The notes below the pieces were generated by a model, which made no database searches, was not told where the DNA came from, and saw nothing but the letters and a program-made list of their open reading frames with translations. A stretch of DNA of 26,895 nt from a virus, in IMG/VR virus record IMGVR_UViG_3300033146_000195, positions 1-26,895 of that record; one strand, 5' to 3'. Made by a program: the position numbers and the translations under genes. Position 1 is the first letter of the stretch, and every line of letters begins with the position of its first letter. Shown piece after piece: positions 7,274-26,579 of this stretch.

Positions 7274-8796
7274 TGAATGTTCCGCAAAGAATGACGATAG
7301 CAAAGTTTGGACCGGACCAACCAGAAACTTCTGCTGGGGTTTCTAGGACAATAGAAAATGTACTGCCGAAAACAAGTTTAAGCTATAGTCCGTTACCTAA
7401 TTTTGCACCATTTTCATCAGCGATGAGTAATAGGTTTCAAGGCGGGTTAGCATTCTCAACTACTTCTGGCGATGCTCGTGTGTTCACTGGCGATGTTTCT
7501 AAGCTATATAGGTACGCTGGTGCAGGAGACACACCGATAGATGTATCAAAAACAGGTGGTTATACAACGCCTGCTTCTTATCGGTGGGGTATGGCTTTGT
7601 TTGGAGAACGCGTAATAGCGACGAATGGTACGGACGCTATACAAAGCTATGTTGAAGGAACTTCTTCAGTATTTGCGGATATGATAACAACTGGTATTAC
7701 AAGTCTTAGATCGAAAGTTGTTGATGTTGTTTCTGATTGGGTCGTGCTCGGGGACACAACCGATTCTACGTATGGCGATAAGGATCAAAGGGTGTGGTGG
7801 TTAGCTGTGAATGATCCTACAGACGCACCTATTCCTGGAACTGAAGACGCTGCGAATAAACTTAGCGATTTCCAAGATATTCCCGGAGACCATGGTAAGC
7901 TTATCGGGATAGCTGGTAACTTAGGGTTTTCTAATGCAGGATTATTTTTTGAAAGAGCTGTATTTAGAATGAATTACTCGGGGTTGCCAAAAATATTTGA
8001 GATAACGCCAGCTGAAGGGGCGCGGGGACTATTAGCTCGTGGGGCGTTATGTAAGTTTGGACCGAAAGCTTACTACGCTGGTGAAGATGGGTTTTATGTT
8101 TTTGATGGAAATTCATCAACACCTATAGGTAAAGAGTGGGTTGATGAATTTGTGTACAACGATATGGATTCAGCGTATTTAGATAGAATAACATGCACAC
8201 AAGATCCAGCTAGAGGATTAATTTTTTGGGCATACCCGAGTAGTGGTAGTGCTGACGGTATTGTTAATAGACTACTATGTTACAGCCCTGCATTTAATAA
8301 GTGGGCTATTTCTGATGTCACTTCTCTTTCGTTAGAAGGGTTGTTGAACGCGCCTACGTTTGGTAAAACGCTTGAACAACTGGATACATTTGGGACAATA
8401 GACAGCTTGCAATTCTCTTTAGACTCCACTGTGTGGCAGGGTGTTCGTAGATCACTTGCTGCTGTGGATAGCGATCATAAACTTGGGTATTTTAGTGGTG
8501 AAGCTTTACCAGCTAAGATAGATACTGAAAATATTTCTCTCGGACCAAGACGTACAATATTGACTAGAGTACGCCCGCTAATCGATAATTCTTCCGCTAA
8601 AGTTGCTGTATGTAGCAGAGTTAGGCTCAGTGATTCTAACACATACACAGATCTTCAAGCACAAGAAGACGATGGGTCTGTTGCTGTCGATTCTGAGGGA
8701 AGATATCACAAAGTTAGAGTTGAAACAACTTTAGGTGAAGAGTGGAGTGAAATGAGTGGTGTTGATGTTGAAGAATACGCAGATTCAGGAGTTTAA
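7273..8796 (+). CDS. Tail nozzle protein (P22 gp10 / T7 gp12 functional class)
   Basis: A 507-residue, beta-rich protein with repeated blade-like segments, expected to form the hexameric nozzle or needle platform of a short tail. Diagnostic elements are an N-terminal segment (PKTSLSYSPLPNFAPF), a GLAFSTTSGDARVFTGDVSKLY blade read in two parts, LFGERVIATNGTDAIQ, GNLGFSNAGLFFERAVFRM, YYAGEDGFYVFDGNS, and LLCYSPAFNKWAISD. Similar short motifs with WxxxNP or YNPxxxxW occur in nozzle and stabilisation proteins of podoviruses. It directly follows the adaptor with a one-base TAATG overlap. Assignment rests on architecture and order. Confidence 0.7.
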   Translation: MNVPQRMTIAKFGPDQPETSAGVSRTIENVLPKTSLSYSPLPNFAPFSSAMSNRFQGGLAFSTTSGDARVFTGDVSKLYRYAGAGDTPIDVSKTGGYTTPASYRWGMALFGERVIATNGTDAIQSYVEGTSSVFADMITTGITSLRSKVVDVVSDWVVLGDTTDSTYGDKDQRVWWLAVNDPTDAPIPGTEDAANKLSDFQDIPGDHGKLIGIAGNLGFSNAGLFFERAVFRMNYSGLPKIFEITPAEGARGLLARGALCKFGPKAYYAGEDGFYVFDGNSSTPIGKEWVDEFVYNDMDSAYLDRITCTQDPARGLIFWAYPSSGSADGIVNRLLCYSPAFNKWAISDVTSLSLEGLLNAPTFGKTLEQLDTFGTIDSLQFSLDSTVWQGVRRSLAAVDSDHKLGYFSGEALPAKIDTENISLGPRRTILTRVRPLIDNSSAKVAVCSRVRLSDSNTYTDLQAQEDDGSVAVDSEGRYHKVRVETTLGEEWSEMSGVDVEEYADSGV

Positions 8797-8800
8797 ATAA

Positions 8801-9112
8801 GTGGCTATAGATTTAACAACAGTTGATCAAATTCCTGTAAGTTTACCAGATGAACGTGAAGGACAGCGTATCATAGCAAGAAAAGTAAATGATTTGTTAG
8901 GTGGGCGGGCGTCTACAATTATGTTCGGCGTTACAAGCAAAGCGCAATTAGGTGTGTGGGGAGCTACACCTATATCACAACCTACTACAGCAAGCTCGTC
9001 AGCCACATTTGTATCGGGGACTGGGTCTGGGGTTACAATCGATGCAACATTTGATGGATACACTATAGGACAGACAGTTAAAGCTTTAAGAGATTTAGGA
9101 GTACTAGAATGA
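8801..9112 (+). CDS. Small fibre-stalk / head-fibre-like protein
   Basis: A 103-residue protein with a GTG start (8801), supported by AGGAG at 8787-8791. The second half has the motif FGVTSKAQLGVWGATPISQPT (about residues 42-62), then Ser/Thr-rich linker, and ends IGQTVKALRDLGVLE. The pattern FFGATPxxQP...LRxLGLI is widespread at the ends of small phage structural proteins that trimerise on heads or tails. It overlaps the next gene by ATGA. Its exact attachment site on the particle cannot be told from sequence. Confidence 0.55.
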   Translation: MAIDLTTVDQIPVSLPDEREGQRIIARKVNDLLGGRASTIMFGVTSKAQLGVWGATPISQPTTASSSATFVSGTGSGVTIDATFDGYTIGQTVKALRDLGVLE

Positions 9113-9918
9113 CATTTTATAACCCAAGAAGACGAAGACCTCAAGAATATGATCCAAGAATTACACCTAGACAACAAAATCCGTTGGATCAACGTGGTAC
9201 TATTGTGGAGGAAGAACGCCCACAACAAAACCAACAAAACCCTATGATGAACGCCGTTAATATGTATAGTAAAGGGCGACAAATGACAAATGCTGGGAAA
9301 GGTGCTGGTGGGCAACTTAGTAGATTGTACGGGCGGTATACTATGGATTCCGGAGTTAACCCAGAATCCCTTATGTACGGTAGCGGAGAAGCAACAGCAC
9401 AACAATCTGGAGCAACTAATTTACTTGGTGGTGCAAATGCTACAATGCCTACTGCGGAAGCTGTGCAGAGTGCTAACACGGCTAATTTCTTAAATGCTGG
9501 CGGAAATATTGGAACATCTGCAGCAGGTAATATAGGGAGTAATGCGGGAGGAGCTGGGTATGGTGTGTTGTCTGCTCCAGAAACGACCCCGTGGCTTTCT
9601 GGACTAAGTGAAACAGGTGCGTTGACAAGCGGTATGGAAGGTGCTGGGTCTGGAGCTGGTATGGCTGGTATAACAGGTGGGGCGGAAGGGGCTGGATCGC
9701 TTGCTGCCGCTGAAAGTGCCGCTGCCGCTGAAAGTGTCGCCGCTACTTCTGCCGCTGCCGCTGAGGGTGCTGCCGCAGCAAGTTCTGCTGGCGCAGCAGC
9801 TGCTGGTTCTGGCGCAGCTGGGGCAGGGTTGGCAGCAACAGCTGCGACAACTATACCTATTGTAGGTGCTGTTGGGGCAGCTGTGTATGGTGTTGGGAGT
9901 GTGTTAGATTGGTGGTAG
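9109..9918 (+). CDS. Ala/Gly-rich internal virion (ejection) protein candidate
   Basis: A 269-residue protein with a basic, disordered N-terminus (NPRRRRPQEY) and a long low-complexity C-terminal half made mostly of Ala, Gly and Ser (from about residue 175), ending in a hydrophobic segment TIPIVGAVGAAVYGVGSVL. Such composition, with a hydrophobic end that could insert into membrane, is usual in proteins released from podovirus heads during infection. It stands first in a run of likely ejection proteins, just before a gp13-like gene. A membrane-active role is inference. Confidence 0.55.
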   Translation: MTFYNPRRRRPQEYDPRITPRQQNPLDQRGTIVEEERPQQNQQNPMMNAVNMYSKGRQMTNAGKGAGGQLSRLYGRYTMDSGVNPESLMYGSGEATAQQSGATNLLGGANATMPTAEAVQSANTANFLNAGGNIGTSAAGNIGSNAGGAGYGVLSAPETTPWLSGLSETGALTSGMEGAGSGAGMAGITGGAEGAGSLAAAESAAAAESVAATSAAAAEGAAAASSAGAAAAGSGAAGAGLAATAATTIPIVGAVGAAVYGVGSVLDWW

Positions 9919-16485: not shown

Positions 16486-16927
16486 AAGAGCGTTTTTGGA
16501 CACAATAGCAATAGCCGAGGGGACTGTTAAATACGGGAATGCTATTGGGTATAATGTACTTGTTGGTGGGGGTGTCTTTTCAGATTATTCAGATCACCCG
16601 CGGATAAAGGTATATATAAAAGGTTATAATGTGTATTCAACAGCAGCTGGGAGATACCAACTTTTAGCTAGATACTTTGACTTTTATAAAAAGAAATTAA
16701 ATCTTAAAGATTTTAGTCCATCGTCACAGGACAAAATAGCGCTCCAACAAATAAAGGAGCAGCACGCATTGCAAGATATAGACGACGGAGTATTTAGATC
16801 TGCTGTTACTAAGTGTAGTAATATATGGGCTTCATTTCCGGGAGCTGGGTATGGGCAGCGTGAACTTACCTATGAACGGCTAACGGAAATCTTCACAGCT
16901 TGTGGAGGCGTCTTGAAGGACGGGTGA
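16313..16927 (+). CDS. Endolysin, lambda R-type lytic transglycosylase (GH104)
   Basis: Cuts the glycan strands of host peptidoglycan to release progeny. The catalytic domain (residues ~58-204) closely follows lambda R: RAFLDTIAIAEGT with the catalytic Glu at residue 69, GYNVLVGGGVFSDYSDHP, STAAGRYQLL, LKDFSPSSQDKIALQQIKE, and KCSNIWASFPGAGYGQ. The start at 16313 is supported by GGAG (16302-16305); a TTG at 16295 is less likely. This adds about 57 residues before the lambda-like domain, with no clear signal peptide, encoded within the upstream gene. The true start could be later, but no better site was seen. Indicates a Gram-negative host. Confidence 0.9.
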   Translation: MQIKKLLIKAWTEFTTAWTHKTERLTRLRSESVESPPQQKQSSENVAKIPVKHYKANRRAFLDTIAIAEGTVKYGNAIGYNVLVGGGVFSDYSDHPRIKVYIKGYNVYSTAAGRYQLLARYFDFYKKKLNLKDFSPSSQDKIALQQIKEQHALQDIDDGVFRSAVTKCSNIWASFPGAGYGQRELTYERLTEIFTACGGVLKDG

Positions 16928-16955
16928 GGTCTGGTTTTCTCCTTTACCAGACCTC
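16926..16955. terminator. Bidirectional hairpin between the convergent gene blocks
   Basis: GAGGTCTGGT (16926-16935) pairs perfectly with ACCAGACCTC (16946-16955) around a 10-base pyrimidine loop. It overlaps the endolysin stop and lies just beyond the last minus-strand gene, where both transcripts must end. A CTTCT tract follows on the plus strand; no strong T-run on the minus strand. Confidence 0.7.
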
Positions 16956-16963
16956 CTTCTCAC

Positions 16964-17422
16964 TTACTTGTTAAGGTTTTCTTTTGTAGAAAATTGTAAG
17001 TCTAATTCTTCTTGGGCTTCTTCGCGCTCCTTATTCATTTTGATTGTGTAATCGTTTAAAATGATGCGTAATATGCGCACAGCATTCGTGATCTGGTTAA
17101 TTTCTTGCTGGATAGGGGTCGTAAGTATATCACGTATAATCGCTACCGTAGAATCGTCTTTTGCAAGGTAACTTTCACACATTCTTGAAATATCAGTATC
17201 GATATTAGCATGCTTTTCAAAAAGTATTTCTACTCGCTTGTTTAAGAAATGGATAGCTTTCTTTAAATCAGTTACACCATCTTTTCGCTTATAGCGAATG
17301 AGGTACTTTGTAAACCCGTACAAAGTAGGGCTAAGATTGTACTTTTCAGCAAAATCCCAATGTTGGAATTCACCAGCTACGGCATAGTGCTCCCCGCCTA
17401 TTTGTTCTTCATTTGCGCTCAT
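16964..17422 (-). CDS. DUF3310 protein (T7 gp1.7 nucleotide-kinase-like)
   Basis: A 152-residue protein. The N-terminal half has the DUF3310 signature: QIGGEHY (residues 7-13), HWDFAEKYNLSPTLYGF (21-37), KYLIRYKRKDG (39-49) and DLKKAIHFL (52-60). T7 gp1.7, in the same family, phosphorylates dTMP and dGMP without a P-loop. The C-terminal half is helical and charged. AAGGAG upstream supports the ATG; it overlaps the HD-domain gene by 14 bases. In this operon it could phosphorylate a modified monophosphate such as hydroxymethyl-dUMP, which is an inference. It is the last gene of the minus-strand block. Confidence 0.75.
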   Translation of the reverse strand: MSANEEQIGGEHYAVAGEFQHWDFAEKYNLSPTLYGFTKYLIRYKRKDGVTDLKKAIHFLNKRVEILFEKHANIDTDISRMCESYLAKDDSTVAIIRDILTTPIQQEINQITNAVRILRIILNDYTIKMNKEREEAQEELDLQFSTKENLNK

Positions 17423-17969
17423 TTTCTAACTCCTTCATTTCTGATACTAACGCTAATCGATATTTATTACAATTAGATCTTCTATTAAGTAACTCTCCGT
17501 ATTTTATTGGCGGAAACTTGTTATCTATATAAGATTCCCACCTATAAAACATGTCCTTAGCTGGTGGATACCCAGCTCTATACTCCTCCAGAGAGAACAG
17601 CATCCCCTCTAACATATCACAGAATTTCAAAATTACTTTTTCATCTTCTGTGATACTAGTAGTAAGCCACAACGTTTCCATAAAATCACGCTCCAAGCAG
17701 GCGCACATTTCTCCGAGTTTCTTATTGTTTGTTTTCACAGGCGCTGGTATATCACCAGTTACGCACTCAGCTATGTCGTGAAACAATGCGGCACTTAATA
17801 ACTCGGCGCTTGGGTTTAGGGAACACAAAGCACATAAAGACGCTACACCATAACTATGCTCGGCTACGGACTGTTTTCTTGGAAACGTTGTGGAATGGTA
17901 TCTTACAACTCTTCCACCATTATAAATTGCGTTGACTTGGTTAATGCGCAAAGGTCTACCATTAAACAT
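17409..17969 (-). CDS. HD-domain 5'-deoxynucleotidase (YfbR-like)
   Basis: A 186-residue HD-superfamily phosphohydrolase. Metal-ligand and catalytic residues visible: H25 (VRYHS), H38 (VAEHSYGVA), H64-D65 (LFHDIAE) and D118 (KFCDM), with TGDIPAPVK at residues 71-79, as in YfbR-type dNMP phosphatases. The start at 17969 is preferred to 17996 because AGGAG (17978-17982) is eight bases upstream; it overlaps the hydroxymethylase stop by eight bases. YfbR hydrolyses deoxyribonucleoside monophosphates, so beside a dUMP-modifying enzyme it may remove competing nucleotides (inference). A dNTPase role like that of other phage HD proteins is the alternative. Confidence 0.75.
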   Translation of the reverse strand: MFNGRPLRINQVNAIYNGGRVVRYHSTTFPRKQSVAEHSYGVASLCALCSLNPSAELLSAALFHDIAECVTGDIPAPVKTNNKKLGEMCACLERDFMETLWLTTSITEDEKVILKFCDMLEGMLFSLEEYRAGYPPAKDMFYRWESYIDNKFPPIKYGELLNRRSNCNKYRLALVSEMKELENERK

Positions 17970-19044
17970 TATCACTTCTCCTGCTAAGCCATTCAACGCA
18001 CGCTCTTCTCCATAATGGATTTTTAATATTAGCTACAGCGTATTCAGACATAGGTGCGTCTTTGTTTTTTCGCTTTTCCCAACACATGAGCATAGGGAGG
18101 GCTACATTCTTTAGAAATGGGCTGTCGTCTAATTCAGATGGAGGTGTGAATGCACCGTAGCGCATAAAAGCCGTCAAAGCCTTATCAAATTTTTCTTTTG
18201 TAGTGCTGAAGAACGGTACATCTATTTCGTCTATACACGCTTCAGCAACGCCGCCGTACGGAGCATAGTCCCACAATAAACATTTTACTTTTTCATACGC
18301 TTTAATAGATTCCTCTTGTATCTTCACAAGCTTCTCTCTTGGAAATATATCAAGATAGACATGTAGGTTATTAGTAAATTGCGTGTACATACCAATCTTC
18401 ATTTTCAAAGATTCCGCAATGTACTTTTGCAACATAGCAAAATGAACTGCATTAGCACCAATAGCACCCCACATCATGTCGTTTGATCTATTACTAACAG
18501 TCATATCAAGCCTCAATTCCCCAGCTCTTTTGACTATCCTAAAATACGCTGTTGTGTTGCATGGTACATCTTTGGCTCCGATACCTGTTATACGTCCCTC
18601 GTCTAGTTTTTCAACATCCGCAGCTCCATCCCACATCTGCAACACACAACGCCTACTTTTTGGATCTCTTGTTAATTCGTCTATTATCCAATTTATTTGA
18701 TCATACCCGAACCACTCCCTCCAACGTTTCCCGTAAGCGCCCCAGCATGTTTTACCGTCATCACTGTAATCTTTAAAATTACTATTAAACCTTAGAGGCC
18801 ATGCAAGATCGTCCCTTCCTTGCAACATCCACATGGATTCCATTACATGGAAGAATGGATTTGCATCTCTGGTTGGTGAAAGTAATGTTGAAAGTTTTGG
18901 ACGTTCGTACTCTATAGAGACAGGCTGTTCTATTGACAACACTCTACCATTTCTACTATTTTGCACACGTCCTTCACGTAACATGATTGTTATAGCTTTA
19001 CTAAGTACCTGATTGACCTCTAACCCTTTTATACATATAGTCAT
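17962..19044 (-). CDS. Thymidylate synthase-fold protein, probable dUMP 5-hydroxymethylase
   Basis: A 360-residue homologue of thymidylate synthase and phage pyrimidine hydroxymethylases. Aligned by eye: E69 (HVMESMWMLQG), YGKRWREW (104-111), SRR (130-132), catalytic C162 (VPCNT), RSNDMMWG (186-193), base-recognition N198, and LHVYLD (227-232). The Cys is followed by Asn-Thr rather than His, and RSND replaces the RSxDVFLG of bacterial ThyA; both resemble T4 gp42 dCMP hydroxymethylase. T4 gp42 has Asp at the base-recognition position, whereas Asn here favours uracil. The usual TS C-terminus is absent, replaced by an extension of about 60 residues. It overlaps the aGPT-PPlase-like gene by ATGA. 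True thymidylate synthase activity cannot be excluded. Confidence 0.75.
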   Translation of the reverse strand: MTICIKGLEVNQVLSKAITIMLREGRVQNSRNGRVLSIEQPVSIEYERPKLSTLLSPTRDANPFFHVMESMWMLQGRDDLAWPLRFNSNFKDYSDDGKTCWGAYGKRWREWFGYDQINWIIDELTRDPKSRRCVLQMWDGAADVEKLDEGRITGIGAKDVPCNTTAYFRIVKRAGELRLDMTVSNRSNDMMWGAIGANAVHFAMLQKYIAESLKMKIGMYTQFTNNLHVYLDIFPREKLVKIQEESIKAYEKVKCLLWDYAPYGGVAEACIDEIDVPFFSTTKEKFDKALTAFMRYGAFTPPSELDDSPFLKNVALPMLMCWEKRKNKDAPMSEYAVANIKNPLWRRACVEWLSRRSDNV

Positions 19045-19886
19045 TTTACTACGCCTCCTCTGTATAGTTGTTTTGGGCGTCCTTCTCCAAGACGCGCTCT
19101 TTCATATTTATCGAATTCGCACAGACAGTTCTGGTAATCTTGAGCGTGAGTTTTCCCAATAATTTCTTCTACTTCGTACTGTACCCTGTCAATAAACTCT
19201 ACCAATTCAGCTTTCCACGCATTCTCTGTCCACCCTTTATTTACGGGTCTTCCGAGGATTCTATTAAGCCCTCTGCGACTTCCCGGACCACTCTTAGCAA
19301 ATGTCCACCAATCAGGGCATGTTGTATAGGGGGACGCATATTTAAAATCTGCTACTACTTGCGCAGCTATAAAAGACCCTATACCATTGAATTCATCAAC
19401 TATAGCTTCGTGCCACATACACAATTGCGTAGCTGGCTTCGGGGCTATGTGATCACGAGCTTGCCACAATGGTTCCAGAATCCAGTCTAATACATAGTCA
19501 ACTTTAGACATACGCACACCACAGGTAGACACTATGTACGCACCATTAAATACTTTAGTACCTGCCGATTGTACAGATTTCAACTTCTTTCGCCACAGCT
19601 CTCTATTGAATTTGTGCGGGTATCCAATTGTATCTAGTGTTGATGGTAAGTTGAACAATCTTGCAACAACCATCGCGAACCATAAGTTTTTATCATACTG
19701 GTACGGATCACGCCAATGCTTAGCAATCCATTTTGTAACTTTATCGTCTTCTCTATGTACGTTGCAAAATCTGTATTTTTCTATTATTGGGTCACCTGTG
19801 TATACTTCACCAGCTTCTTTTTTACAGCGTGCGTCTTCACGAGCTTTTACGAATTGGATGAACGTTTTTTCAGCACTGCTAAGCAT
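19041..19886 (-). CDS. aGPT-PPlase / amino acid:DNA transferase-like protein (thymidine hypermodification)
   Basis: A 281-residue protein resembling the alpha-glutamyl/putrescinyl-thymidine pyrophosphorylase group, HhH-glycosylase-related proteins of hypermodified phages that replace the pyrophosphate on 5-hydroxymethyluracil in DNA by an amine. Seen: DPIIEKYRFCNVHREDDKVT (residues 32-51), VFNGAYIVS (112-120), a helix-hairpin-helix-like FNGIGSFIAAQVVADF (166-181), SGPGSRRGLNRI (199-210), and near the end LCEFDKYER (255-263) then GEGRPK (267-272), the most diagnostic pair. AAGGAA upstream supports the ATG. It overlaps the glycosyltransferase gene (8 bases) and the hydroxymethylase gene (4 bases), implying one operon. 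No P-loop kinase domain is present in this chain. Family call is by recalled motifs. Confidence 0.7.
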   Translation of the reverse strand: MLSSAEKTFIQFVKAREDARCKKEAGEVYTGDPIIEKYRFCNVHREDDKVTKWIAKHWRDPYQYDKNLWFAMVVARLFNLPSTLDTIGYPHKFNRELWRKKLKSVQSAGTKVFNGAYIVSTCGVRMSKVDYVLDWILEPLWQARDHIAPKPATQLCMWHEAIVDEFNGIGSFIAAQVVADFKYASPYTTCPDWWTFAKSGPGSRRGLNRILGRPVNKGWTENAWKAELVEFIDRVQYEVEEIIGKTHAQDYQNCLCEFDKYERARLGEGRPKQLYRGGVVK

Positions 19887-20802
19887 TTTCTATTTCCTTT
19901 CTAGCCTTACTAACTATTGTACGAAGTATATTTTTATACGGTTTCTTAAAAGCTTCAAACTGCTCGCGCTGTATGCGTTTATGGTTACGTAGTGCTTTTT
20001 TCATATCTTGTTCTGTGTCCGCAATCCACGGTGTTACATCAATGCCTGCTTCTTTTAACATAGGAATAGACTCGGATTGAAACACCATACCAAGCTTAGC
20101 ACCTAACATTTCATAAAATCTATTTGCTGGGCTGTGAAATTCAACATGACTTTTTGAATCCTCTATATATAGACCTACAGCAAAAGACCCCAGCCATTTG
20201 TAGAATTGTGATCTAGGTACGGCAGAAACAAGTTCTACATTTTCTGGAGTATACAGTTTTTTAGACGGGCTACTGACTACAAATGGTACATTCATAGAGA
20301 AATATTTGTCAAAGACCTTCATTCTATTTTGTCTACAAGCTCCGTAATAACATACAGCGCGACGTTTTCTAAATTGAACAGGCTGCGGTTCGAACGTTAA
20401 GCTGTTCCAGTTTATATATCTACTAAATTCCGTATTATTTGAATTATTTTTAACAGTAGTCCACATATCAGTATCTGGAAGACCAGCTTTTCTCCTATTT
20501 CTAAAAGCTTTTCTAAACGGACTTTCCGCGTTAGAAATAGGCTTTGGGGGTACGATGGTGTAGTCATTTTGTATCCACACAACCCTACCAGCTTTCTCCA
20601 CAGCTGACCCGAGTTCTGGTAAGACTTTACAAAACGCAAATGCGCCTCCAACTATGTACAGGACATCGTATGTTTCATTAGCTATAGACTTATCGTATAT
20701 TATTTCTAACTCTAATTCATTCTCTAGGAACTTGGCTATACGTGAAGTAGCTACGACTCCTTCCGGGTTAGGTTTACTGAACGTGAATAGTGCTCTTTTC
20801 AT
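19879..20802 (-). CDS. GT-B-like glycosyltransferase (candidate DNA-base glycosyltransferase)
   Basis: A 307-residue protein with two Rossmann-like halves. The N-terminal half starts MKRALFTFSKPNPEGVVATS and has a hydrophobic strand plus Gly turn VLYIVGGAFAF (47-57). The C-terminal half includes RRAVCYYGACRQNRMKVF (147-164), VPRSQFYKWLGSFAVGLYIE (195-214), and SPANRFYEMLGAKLGMVFQS (224-243), the Glu-containing acceptor loop expected for the sugar-nucleotide site of GT-B enzymes. GAGGAG precedes the ATG. Being encoded between the SNF2 helicase and two nucleotide-modification genes, it is more likely to act on hydroxymethylated DNA than on cell-surface sugars. Sugar and acceptor are not known. 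Confidence 0.65.
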   Translation of the reverse strand: MKRALFTFSKPNPEGVVATSRIAKFLENELELEIIYDKSIANETYDVLYIVGGAFAFCKVLPELGSAVEKAGRVVWIQNDYTIVPPKPISNAESPFRKAFRNRRKAGLPDTDMWTTVKNNSNNTEFSRYINWNSLTFEPQPVQFRKRRAVCYYGACRQNRMKVFDKYFSMNVPFVVSSPSKKLYTPENVELVSAVPRSQFYKWLGSFAVGLYIEDSKSHVEFHSPANRFYEMLGAKLGMVFQSESIPMLKEAGIDVTPWIADTEQDMKKALRNHKRIQREQFEAFKKPYKNILRTIVSKARKEIENA

Positions 20803-20826: not shown

Positions 20827-20848
20827 GAAGCCCCATATATGGGGCTTC
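20827..20848 (-). terminator. Hairpin between helicase and glycosyltransferase genes
   Basis: GAAGCCCC (20827-20834) and GGGGCTTC (20841-20848) pair around ATATAT, which can itself extend the stem. It lies after the helicase stop and just before the ribosome binding site of the next gene. No T-run follows on the minus strand, so partial termination or mRNA processing is as likely as full termination. Confidence 0.5.
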
Positions 20849-20859
20849 TCTGTTAATTA

Positions 20860-21240
20860 CTAATATAGTGATATGTAACCATTTTGTATTGCGAATAAAA
20901 CATCGCGCTCTGCAACTTTTACAGTTTTACCATTCGCCGCTACTACTTCAGTACCGATAACTTTAATTACAGACTTGCTTCCTAAAATAGCTGCCATAAG
21001 CGCATATCGCACTGTTCCTTCCCTGCATGTAGGGTTTTTCACTAATTTCTTTATTCTAGTCTTTTTCCCCACAGATGTAGATTTTTCAACTTTGGTTTTC
21101 TTAGTTACTTTCTTAGTTACTTTCTTAGCTACTTTCTTAGTTACTTTCTTAGTTACTTTCTTAATAACTTTAGGCTCCACTTCTTGCTCTGAACTTTTTG
21201 TAGCTCTTCTTCGCTTTATCTTTGATGTAAACTTACTCAT
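20860..21240 (-). CDS. Possible internally initiated lysine-rich H1-like protein (same frame as helicase)
   Basis: Inside the helicase frame, ATG at 21240 is preceded by AAAGGAGAG at ideal spacing (six bases after AAGGAG). Translation from here would give a separate 126-residue protein MSKFTSKIKRRRATKSS with KKVTKKV repeats and a C-terminal module ending AIQNGYISLY. In many phages such basic DNA-binding proteins are free-standing, so this may be an in-frame nested gene producing both a fusion and a free form. It is not certain that the internal start is used. Confidence 0.5.
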   Translation of the reverse strand: MSKFTSKIKRRRATKSSEQEVEPKVIKKVTKKVTKKVAKKVTKKVTKKTKVEKSTSVGKKTRIKKLVKNPTCREGTVRYALMAAILGSKSVIKVIGTEVVAANGKTVKVAERDVLFAIQNGYISLY

Positions 21241-22731
21241 TTTTCTCTCCTTTATGTTGATTGACTTGTCTAATTTCTTAGTCATGTTTTCAGTATAATC
21301 TAACTTATCATCAAAGTAAAGAGAAAAGTTAGCCGATTCTTTTGCCGCAATTTTCTTCAGTCCATCTAGAAGACTTTTTTGGGTTTTATCCTTTGATTTC
21401 AACACGGATAGTATAACTTCATCTATTGTGTGTTCTGCGATTATATGATGAATAAATACCTTAGAATGTTTTGACCCTTGGCGCAACACTCTTTGATTAA
21501 ATTGATCGTACCATTCAAGGTTCCACGGAAGCGAATGCCATATAACATGGTTACCTGCATTTTGTAGATTAAGTCCGTGCGCCATGCTGGCGGGGTGTCC
21601 TATTAATACTGGTATTTCACCAGCGTTCCACTTATCAGCTATTATTGATGATTTTTTAGCAGACACCCCTCCTCCTATGAAAGGTACAGCTTTACCAAAT
21701 ACTTTTCTTAGTCTGTCTAAGTCGTGATTGAATTCGTAGGCTATTAAACATGGAGTACCTTGTAATTCATCCACAAGGTCTTTAGTCGCCTCTGCTTTCC
21801 ACATTCCGAGATGGTGTGCTTTACTGTCTTCGTCGTACACCCCGCCGTTGGCTATCTGTCTACACTTTCCGGAGGCAACAGCTGCGCTTACGGCTGTTAA
21901 AAACTTACCTTGTAAAAAAGCAAAGAACTCACTCTGCATCTCTTTGTATATTTTAACAGCTTTATCAGATAATTCAACATATATATTATTCTCTATACGC
22001 TGAGGTAACTCTAGGTAATCTCTGCTCTCAAGGCGTAAAGTTATTGGGTCTATGCGTTGCCGTATCGCAACAGCAGCATTTTCTTGGAGCGTCCAGACAT
22101 ATCCTCCAAATCCTGTTTGTCTAAAATACGAGTTGCGGTAATGCGTAATGTATCTTCCGAGTGCTCTTCCCATGTCCAAGATATAGATCTGTCCAAATAG
22201 ATCAATATACCCATTAGGAACAGGTGTTCCAGTAAGAATATAACGTCTATTGAACGAACTGAGACGATGCTTGATGCTTTTGAACCTTTTTGTTTTGGTA
22301 GATTTGAATTTACTGCTTTCATCAATAATAAGCACGTCGAATCCAAATCGTTTGAAGTGTCTATGGTTAAATAGCCACGATAATCCTTCCGGATTGATGA
22401 TATACAAGTCTGCGTCTTCTTCAAGTCTTTTTTCTTTTTCCTTTCCATGTAGAATAACCGTTTTAAGTTCTTTAAAATCATTCCACTTCTCCACTTCTCT
22501 CGGCCACACAGAGTAGCATACCCGCAAGGGTGCGACTACTAAAGCCTTGTCAAACATTTTAGTGTGCTTAAGAACTTTCAGAGTAGCAAGGGTTATACTT
22601 GTTTTTCCTAGTCCGGGATCTAGAAACAATCCTGCGACTGGATTTTTCAACATAAACTCGATAGCTCTTTCTTGGTACGGATGTGGTGTCCAATCCATTT
22701 TTGATCGCTGTGATTCTCTTTTTGATTGCAT
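20860..22731 (-). CDS. SNF2-type DNA helicase/translocase with lysine-rich C-terminal extension
   Basis: A 623-residue protein. Helicase motifs: Walker A DPGLGKT (38-44), DESS (137-140), LTGTP (166-170), HGLNLQNAG (385-393) and QRVLRQGS (413-420). This places it with phage SNF2-like SF2 translocases used in replication or repair. The helicase part ends near residue 460. The frame continues without a stop through an acidic linker into a basic region: M498, KIKRRR, then KKVTKKV repeats (524-546), and a C-terminal module beginning CREGTVRYALMAAIL. ATG at 22731 has AGAGG upstream; M12 (22698) has none. The start overlaps the VRR-NUC gene. The tail looks like a separate histone H1-like protein joined to the helicase. 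Confidence 0.85.
   Translation of the reverse strand: MQSKRESQRSKMDWTPHPYQERAIEFMLKNPVAGLFLDPGLGKTSITLATLKVLKHTKMFDKALVVAPLRVCYSVWPREVEKWNDFKELKTVILHGKEKEKRLEEDADLYIINPEGLSWLFNHRHFKRFGFDVLIIDESSKFKSTKTKRFKSIKHRLSSFNRRYILTGTPVPNGYIDLFGQIYILDMGRALGRYITHYRNSYFRQTGFGGYVWTLQENAAVAIRQRIDPITLRLESRDYLELPQRIENNIYVELSDKAVKIYKEMQSEFFAFLQGKFLTAVSAAVASGKCRQIANGGVYDEDSKAHHLGMWKAEATKDLVDELQGTPCLIAYEFNHDLDRLRKVFGKAVPFIGGGVSAKKSSIIADKWNAGEIPVLIGHPASMAHGLNLQNAGNHVIWHSLPWNLEWYDQFNQRVLRQGSKHSKVFIHHIIAEHTIDEVILSVLKSKDKTQKSLLDGLKKIAAKESANFSLYFDDKLDYTENMTKKLDKSINIKERKMSKFTSKIKRRRATKSSEQEVEPKVIKKVTKKVTKKVAKKVTKKVTKKTKVEKSTSVGKKTRIKKLVKNPTCREGTVRYALMAAILGSKSVIKVIGTEVVAANGKTVKVAERDVLFAIQNGYISLY
21101..21160 (-). repeat. 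Five tandem 12-bp repeats encoding (KKVT)n
   Basis: On the plus strand the unit TTAGTTACTTTC occurs five times without gaps, with one single-base variant (third copy, TTAGCTACTTTC). On the minus strand it encodes GAAAGTAACTAA-type codons read as KKVTKKV/KKVA. A sixth diverged unit follows. Likely to change copy number. Confidence 0.9.
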
Positions 22732-26234: not shown

Positions 26235-26579
26235 TTATATTTTTGTAGCAATTATCCAATCATTTGCAAGCATATCTGCTTGCAGCGGCGTCCATGGCAT
26301 TATAGTACCATCCATCGTCTTCATATCAATGTGACCATGGTATGTTACCTCTGTACCTTCTTCATATATACCCAGCAAAGGAGCTCTGTTCACTTTAAAC
26401 TTTGACCCTTGCACCAAGAATATAAACACCCCAGCGCCTGCCCAGCCAGCTCTATACGCAACAGTACCAGCTTTCCCTTCTTTTATGGCAATCAATGCAG
26501 TTGGGAAATCAACTTTATCGACTTCTTCATACTTGACTTCTGTATCTGCTGGTGGTTGTGTTACTTCTTCTTCTTCCAT
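26235..26579 (-). CDS. DUF2829 / Tad2-like protein (candidate Thoeris anti-defence)
   Basis: A 114-residue protein. After an acidic leader of about 22 residues it has the DUF2829 domain: DFPTALIAIKEGK (24-36), YRAGWAGAGVFIFLVQGSKF (42-61), VNRAPLLGIY (63-72), HIDMKTMDG (83-91), and PWTPLQADMLANDW (95-108). Tad2 proteins of this family bind and sequester the cyclic ADP-ribose signal of Thoeris defence, stopping the NADase effector. AAAGGA upstream supports the ATG. The domain is common in phages, and not every member is known to be active, so the anti-defence role is inference. Confidence 0.8.
   Translation of the reverse strand: MEEEEVTQPPADTEVKYEEVDKVDFPTALIAIKEGKAGTVAYRAGWAGAGVFIFLVQGSKFKVNRAPLLGIYEEGTEVTYHGHIDMKTMDGTIMPWTPLQADMLANDWIIATKI

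Follow-up and report, generated by a model that had tools for sequence, protein, structure and literature searches.

A five-gene operon in a viral genome fragment

The window analysed here is the 26,895-base IMG/VR virus record IMGVR_UViG_3300033146_000195, and it contains five minus-strand genes (20802 to 16964) that we propose form a cassette for glycosylated 5-hydroxymethyluracil (hmU) in phage DNA. In transcription order these code for a 307-amino acid (aa) GT-B glycosyltransferase (GT; 19879–20802, minus strand), a 281-aa protein of Pfam family PF18723 (19041–19886, minus), a 360-aa enzyme with the thymidylate synthase (TS) fold (17962–19044, minus), a 186-aa YfbR-like HD 5'-deoxynucleotidase (17409–17969, minus) and a 152-aa DUF3310 protein (16964–17422, minus). 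All five have ATG starts and AGGAG-like ribosome sites, and neighbouring genes overlap by 4–14 nt; the third junction is an 8-nt overlap if translation of the HD gene begins at ATG 17969, with GGAG upstream, and not at the TTG at 17996 that begins the longest open reading frame. The five overlapping genes listed in a preliminary description of this stretch, made from the sequence alone, are thus real, and profile searches place four of the products in known families and the 307-aa protein in none.

The association of these genes is beyond chance, since dozens of IMG/VR contigs have the core order PF18723–TS–HD–DUF3310, and 31 of the 34 contigs retrieved with the GT alone carry PF18723 and/or TS genes in the fetched stretch. 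The same core order is present in phages M6 and SN1. The earlier suggestion of an operon for hypermodified uracil is supported.

A glycosyltransferase resembling T4 beta-glucosyltransferase

The GT has no family match in Pfam, PHROG or NCBIfam; its relatives in the 34 IMG/VR contigs were found by a scan with an alignment of GT relatives. Its AlphaFold2 model, made with 35 aligned sequences, has a predicted local distance difference test score (pLDDT) of 93.6 and a predicted template modelling score of 0.90. When the model is compared with structures in the PDB, T4 DNA beta-glucosyltransferase (BGT; Foldseek E 2e-9; Z 20.8 over 290 residues, 3.5 Å) takes the first four places in each of two structure comparisons, followed by SenB (Z 17.4), T4 alpha-glucosyltransferase (AGT; Z 16.9) and then many cellular GT-B enzymes. 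A check by sequence only gives a similar picture, with hhalign matching the GT family to six BGT homologues over 255 columns (Prob 96.2, E 2.4e-9; unrelated control, Prob 0.7). A comparison using BGT as a single sequence is weak (Prob 19.8, E 0.0012), and searches of PDB sequences with the GT and PF18723 profiles return no relatives; for the GT, the answer comes solely from fold comparison and from the profile built on BGT homologues.

The hhalign match pairs GT residues Asp80, Arg157, Arg228 and Glu231 with BGT Asp100, Arg191, Arg269 and Glu272, and all four are invariant or nearly so among the 35 GT family sequences; BGT Asp100 is the residue mutated in PDB entry 1nzd. From the modelled fold and the profile comparison, the 307-aa protein is a GT-B enzyme, as had been proposed, of a previously undescribed BGT-like family, and it is a candidate DNA hmU glycosyltransferase.

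Members of the extended GT family lie beside PF18723 genes in two cultured Escherichia phages, vB_EcoM_IME392 and EP_H11. When the GT alignment was used to scan 84,980 species genomes of bacteria and archaea, no relatives were found; the scan is pattern-based and leaves absence unproven.

The attached sugar probably varies among phages, given the different genes that accompany the GT. A PIG-L gene, coding for a protein like N-acetylglucosamine (GlcNAc) de-N-acetylases, is near the GT in both IME392 and EP_H11 (loci L003 and L002, each at 7298–7909), and suggests that the sugar in these phages may be GlcNAc-derived and then deacetylated. In locus L009 (8105–8995 and 9918–11114) a PfkB sugar kinase, whose likeness to heptose-phosphate kinases was judged by eye, directly precedes the GT and a TAGT-like protein directly follows it, and locus L118 adds a nucleotidyltransferase.

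The TS-fold enzyme, nucleotidase and DUF3310 protein

The TS-fold protein matches PF00303 (E 8e-21) and phrog_5131 (E 6e-97), and shows 31% identity to SPO1 gp29, which carries a dUMP hydroxymethylase annotation, and 23% to E. coli ThyA. Cys146 and Asn177 are kept, and a Cys-Asn pair replaces the E. coli Cys146-His147, as in SPO1 gp29 and the M6-type enzymes. Asn177 selects uracil, and the separation of modifying from ordinary TS homologues is best at two positions, of which 147 is one (PMC8670742). Because these residues are those of SPO1 gp29, the best reading of the sequence is a dUMP hydroxymethylase, and the earlier assignment to a hydroxymethylase in place of a plain thymidylate synthase is supported. 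The protein has no equivalent of Trp80, a feature that we dropped as a hydroxymethylase marker because T4 dCMP hydroxymethylase retains Trp at that position.

The HD protein belongs to the YfbR-like family (PF12917, E 1.3e-13), and the last gene product is a DUF3310 protein by its match to phrog_5839 (E 1.7e-16), with a PF11753 match (E 2.3e-4) just short of the Pfam cut-off. Both were named correctly in the preliminary description.

The PF18723 protein

The 281-aa protein is a clear member of PF18723 (E 9.4e-38; 130.6 bits against a gathering cut-off of 25), a family currently named 'hmdU DNA kinase helical domain' (HMUDK_hel) and earlier aGPT-PPlase1. It has homologues in M6 (ORF055), ViI (Vi01_130c), PhiW-14 (gp72) and SN1, and residues R16, F40, N42, R45, D48, G170, F172, G200-P-G202, C256-E257 and K260 are invariant across the window, M6, ViI and W-14 proteins. 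M6, ViI and PhiW-14 are phages with hypermodified thymidine, whereas SPO1, in which the family is absent, has DNA carrying bare hmU. An IMG/VR scan with the single 281-aa sequence gives no matches, and the alignment-based scan gives at least 550. One locus (L066) has tandem PF18723 genes (7824–8768 and 8740–9675), the second of which is very divergent.

The AlphaFold2 model of the PF18723 protein (pLDDT 95) resembles HhH-GPD DNA glycosylases (MjOgg, Z 11.3) and PUGT (Z 10.7), so that its structural neighbours are enzymes that handle DNA bases, and a HhH-GPD DNA-glycosylase-like fold is likely. These matches suggest a candidate factor for recognition or presentation of hmU in DNA. PUGT is a characterised 5-PmdU glycinyltransferase (PDB 8z2m and 8z2n), and the PF18723 protein is similar to it in fold only: the PF18723 profile has no sequence relation to M6 ORF051, the PUGT counterpart (Prob 0.5), and the window contains no ORF051 homologue. 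The label of aGPT-PPlase or amino acid:DNA transferase first given to the 281-aa protein therefore fails, and a role in transferring an amino acid or amine was rejected.

Exchangeable decorating enzymes around a conserved core

The genes that could decorate hmU were counted in 92 non-redundant viral PF18723 loci, within about 4 kb around PF18723. Of these, 32 have a P-loop kinase, 32 have TAGT (PF20691/phrog_842) and 26 have the BGT-like GT. No locus has both kinase and TAGT (0 of 92; Fisher 1.8e-8, a value to be read with caution because related loci do not count as independent), and GT and TAGT almost exclude each other, the two co-occurring in one of the 26 GT loci. On a tree of PF18723, counting well-supported branches only, there are at least six changes of TAGT, at least five of the kinase and at least four of the GT, including kinase/TAGT sister pairs. 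The GT thus sits in a swappable decorating slot of a widespread core cassette.

GenBank labels the P-loop nucleotide kinase of the M6 hypermodification cassette, ORF054 (locus L154, 4686–5249), as 'terminase small subunit', and in locus L059 a related protein matches phrog_800, which bears the same name. This label on M6-type P-loop kinases is probably a misannotation that is spreading.

Relationships to known modification systems

The operon is most readily compared with the 5-NedU cassettes of M6 and SN1, with which it shares a PF18723 protein, a TS-fold hydroxymethylase, an HD nucleotidase, a DUF3310-like protein, a family A polymerase and the order of the genes. The window homologues of the M6 proteins are those of PF18723 (7e-37), TS (3e-64), HD (ORF059, 7e-21), DUF3310 (ORF061, 1.2e-12) and PolA. 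In M6, however, the core is accompanied by PUGT/aGPT-PPlase2, a pyridoxal phosphate (PLP) enzyme, a radical S-adenosylmethionine (radical SAM) protein, a P-loop kinase and Nmad5, whereas the window has one BGT-like GT in the place of the kinase, and no homologues of these M6 proteins (ORFs 051–054 and 056) are found within the fragment. Attachment of an amine, the other modification suggested earlier, is accordingly unsupported.

Also among the closest systems is an unannotated cluster in IME392 and EP_H11, which includes the extended-family GT (24% identity), PF18723, TS and a YfbR-like HD protein; these phages differ in having an additional P-loop kinase and the PIG-L deacetylase. In pelagiphages of the HTVC023P type, a module of TS, aG/PT-PPlase1, 5'-deoxynucleotidase and a TAGT-type glucosyltransferase near PolA has already been published (PMC9599517). 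Its 'beta-glucosyl-HMC-alpha-glucosyltransferase', which by its name corresponds to the GT-A TAGT family (phrog_842/PF20691), differs from the GT-B, BGT-like enzyme of the window. With this module in print, and a GT beside aGPT-PPlase1 also in IME392 and EP_H11, the view that the arrangement departs from known systems was set aside; what stands as new is the undescribed BGT-like family in the swappable slot.

T4 offers a more distant parallel, as its BGT (PF09198) shares the GT-B fold and donor-site residues, and there too a DNA glucosyltransferase gene adjoins that of a TS-fold hydroxymethylase (gene 42, dCMP hydroxymethylase). The identity between the two glycosyltransferases is about 15%, the T4 base is hydroxymethylcytosine where the Asn177-type enzyme of the window points to hmU, and the T4 scheme has no PF18723 partner. 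The predicted chemistry would equal that of kinetoplastid base J, beta-glucosyl-hmU, if the sugar is beta-glucose. Base J synthesis begins with hydroxylation of thymidine in DNA by JBP enzymes, whereas the window phage would make hmU at the nucleotide level. To our knowledge, base J is known only from parasites such as trypanosomes.

Proposed pathway and alternatives

We propose, with a probability of roughly two in three, that the operon is a cassette for glycosylated hmU DNA in which a sugar is transferred to hmU after replication by the BGT-like GT. The TS-fold enzyme would convert dUMP to 5-hydroxymethyl-dUMP, as suggested by the residues it has in common with SPO1 gp29, and the YfbR-like nucleotidase would clear competing deoxynucleotides such as dTMP, with DUF3310 in some assisting role; for these two, family and constant linkage are the guide. 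The phage polymerase would then substitute 5-hydroxymethyl-dUTP for part or all of the dTTP, and such incorporation is established for hmU phages. After replication the GT, going by its fold and conserved residues, would glycosylate hmU in DNA at its hydroxymethyl oxygen, with a nucleotide-sugar as donor, and the product would be base J if the sugar is glucose in beta linkage. The fold and the swapping of neighbouring genes suggest that the PF18723 protein may recognise hmU, or flip it from the helix, on behalf of the decorating enzyme; in other phages that enzyme would be the kinase or TAGT. T4 BGT can make base J on hmU DNA in vitro, and in duplex only at hmU:G mispairs (PMC4111573); if the GT has a similar restriction, a partner that presents the base would be of help. 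The modification plausibly protects the DNA from restriction.

A broader proposal, which we put forward tentatively, is that phages have a route to base J or another glycosyl-hmU that is unrelated to the one in trypanosomes, with PF18723 as a general hmU-presenting platform for interchangeable decorators (kinase, TAGT, BGT-like GT and radical SAM).

Several observations weigh against synthesis of glycosylated hmU as proposed. The BGT-invariant Glu22 has no clear counterpart in the GT, being placed at the extreme end of the profile alignment, where the family has no conserved Glu; none of the 35 family members matches PF09198 at E up to 1, and none strongly matches any other glycosyltransferase family. 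Donor and acceptor may therefore differ from those of BGT, and the claim is limited to an enzyme predicted to work like BGT, as distinct from membership of PF09198. A P-loop kinase is nearby in 11 of the 26 GT loci and in both E. coli phages, which raises the possibility that the GT acts on phospho-hmU or alongside it. The only named link of PF18723 is to the kinase step, and its HhH-GPD assignment relies on a Z of about 11, which is middling for a helical protein and makes the fold likely rather than certain. Finally, the window covers only part of the genome, and a kinase or amine-adding genes could lie in the part outside its view.

One alternative is an M6-like route, in which a kinase encoded beyond the fragment would act with PF18723 to phosphorylate hmU in DNA, and the GT would either act on the phospho-hmU derivative or add a separate second decoration. 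The naming of PF18723 for an hmdU DNA kinase, its position beside the P-loop kinase in M6 and SN1, and the kinases near some GT genes all favour such a route. However, the kinase family was detected neither in the window record nor in 18 others that lack a kinase adjacent to PF18723, some of them 60–101 kb long, whereas the same search detected it in all three kinase-slot records used as positive controls; with the mutual exclusion of TAGT and kinase also arguing against it, we consider this route rather unlikely.

It is less probable still that the GT targets a non-DNA substrate, such as a host surface sugar or a phage protein, beside an independent operon for nucleotide metabolism. GT-B enzymes are common, phages use such enzymes on O-antigen, and a distant GT homologue in the T4-like phage S13 has helicase and recombination genes in its vicinity and no PF18723. 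Yet the GT reading frame overlaps the hmU genes, its best fold match is a DNA glucosyltransferase, its linkage to PF18723 and/or TS holds in nearly all the contigs retrieved with it, and the decorator in 32 other loci is TAGT, a family of phage DNA glycosyltransferases. Ordinary nucleotide metabolism, with a thymidylate synthase, a nucleotidase, passenger genes and canonical DNA only, is highly improbable: true thymidylate synthases do belong to the TS family, but the residues of the window enzyme match hydroxymethylases, and PF18723 occurs in hypermodified M6, ViI and W-14 and not in bare-hmU SPO1.

Other features of the window

The plus strand codes for structural genes to about 16.9 kb, past which are minus-strand replication genes. 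The portal and major capsid proteins are SU10-type, and the portal shares 38–39% identity with its counterparts in Pelagibacter phage HTVC106P and Microcystis phage Mvi-Yong1342-1. Between the helicase gene and the GT lies a perfect 11-bp inverted repeat (20827–20848), which could form a hairpin or perhaps a terminator at the edge of the operon. Another inverted repeat, of 10 bp (16926–16955), follows DUF3310, where the two transcription units converge. The operon is directly preceded by a gene for a SNF2-like helicase (phrog_62; 20860–22731, minus), relatives of which are upstream of PF18723 in about 16 other loci examined, and it may be part of a wider module. A Tad2-like domain protein (26235–26579, minus; PF11195, E 7e-18) is a candidate inhibitor of Thoeris defence.

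Significance

Three elements are new: the BGT-like family itself, the finding that dozens of phages, two cultured E. coli phages among them, have it next to PF18723, and the pattern of a swappable slot. The GT family is found so far only in viral sequences, in the 34 IMG/VR contigs and a few cultured phages. PF18723, although named after the kinase step, gains a simple and testable candidate role and occurs in records with no detected kinase of that family. Because the GT and PF18723 are paired in two E. coli phages that are in culture, a direct search for the predicted modified base is possible. If the proposal is true, sugar-bearing hmU in phage DNA would bear on evasion of restriction and CRISPR, and on an independent origin of base-J-like chemistry.

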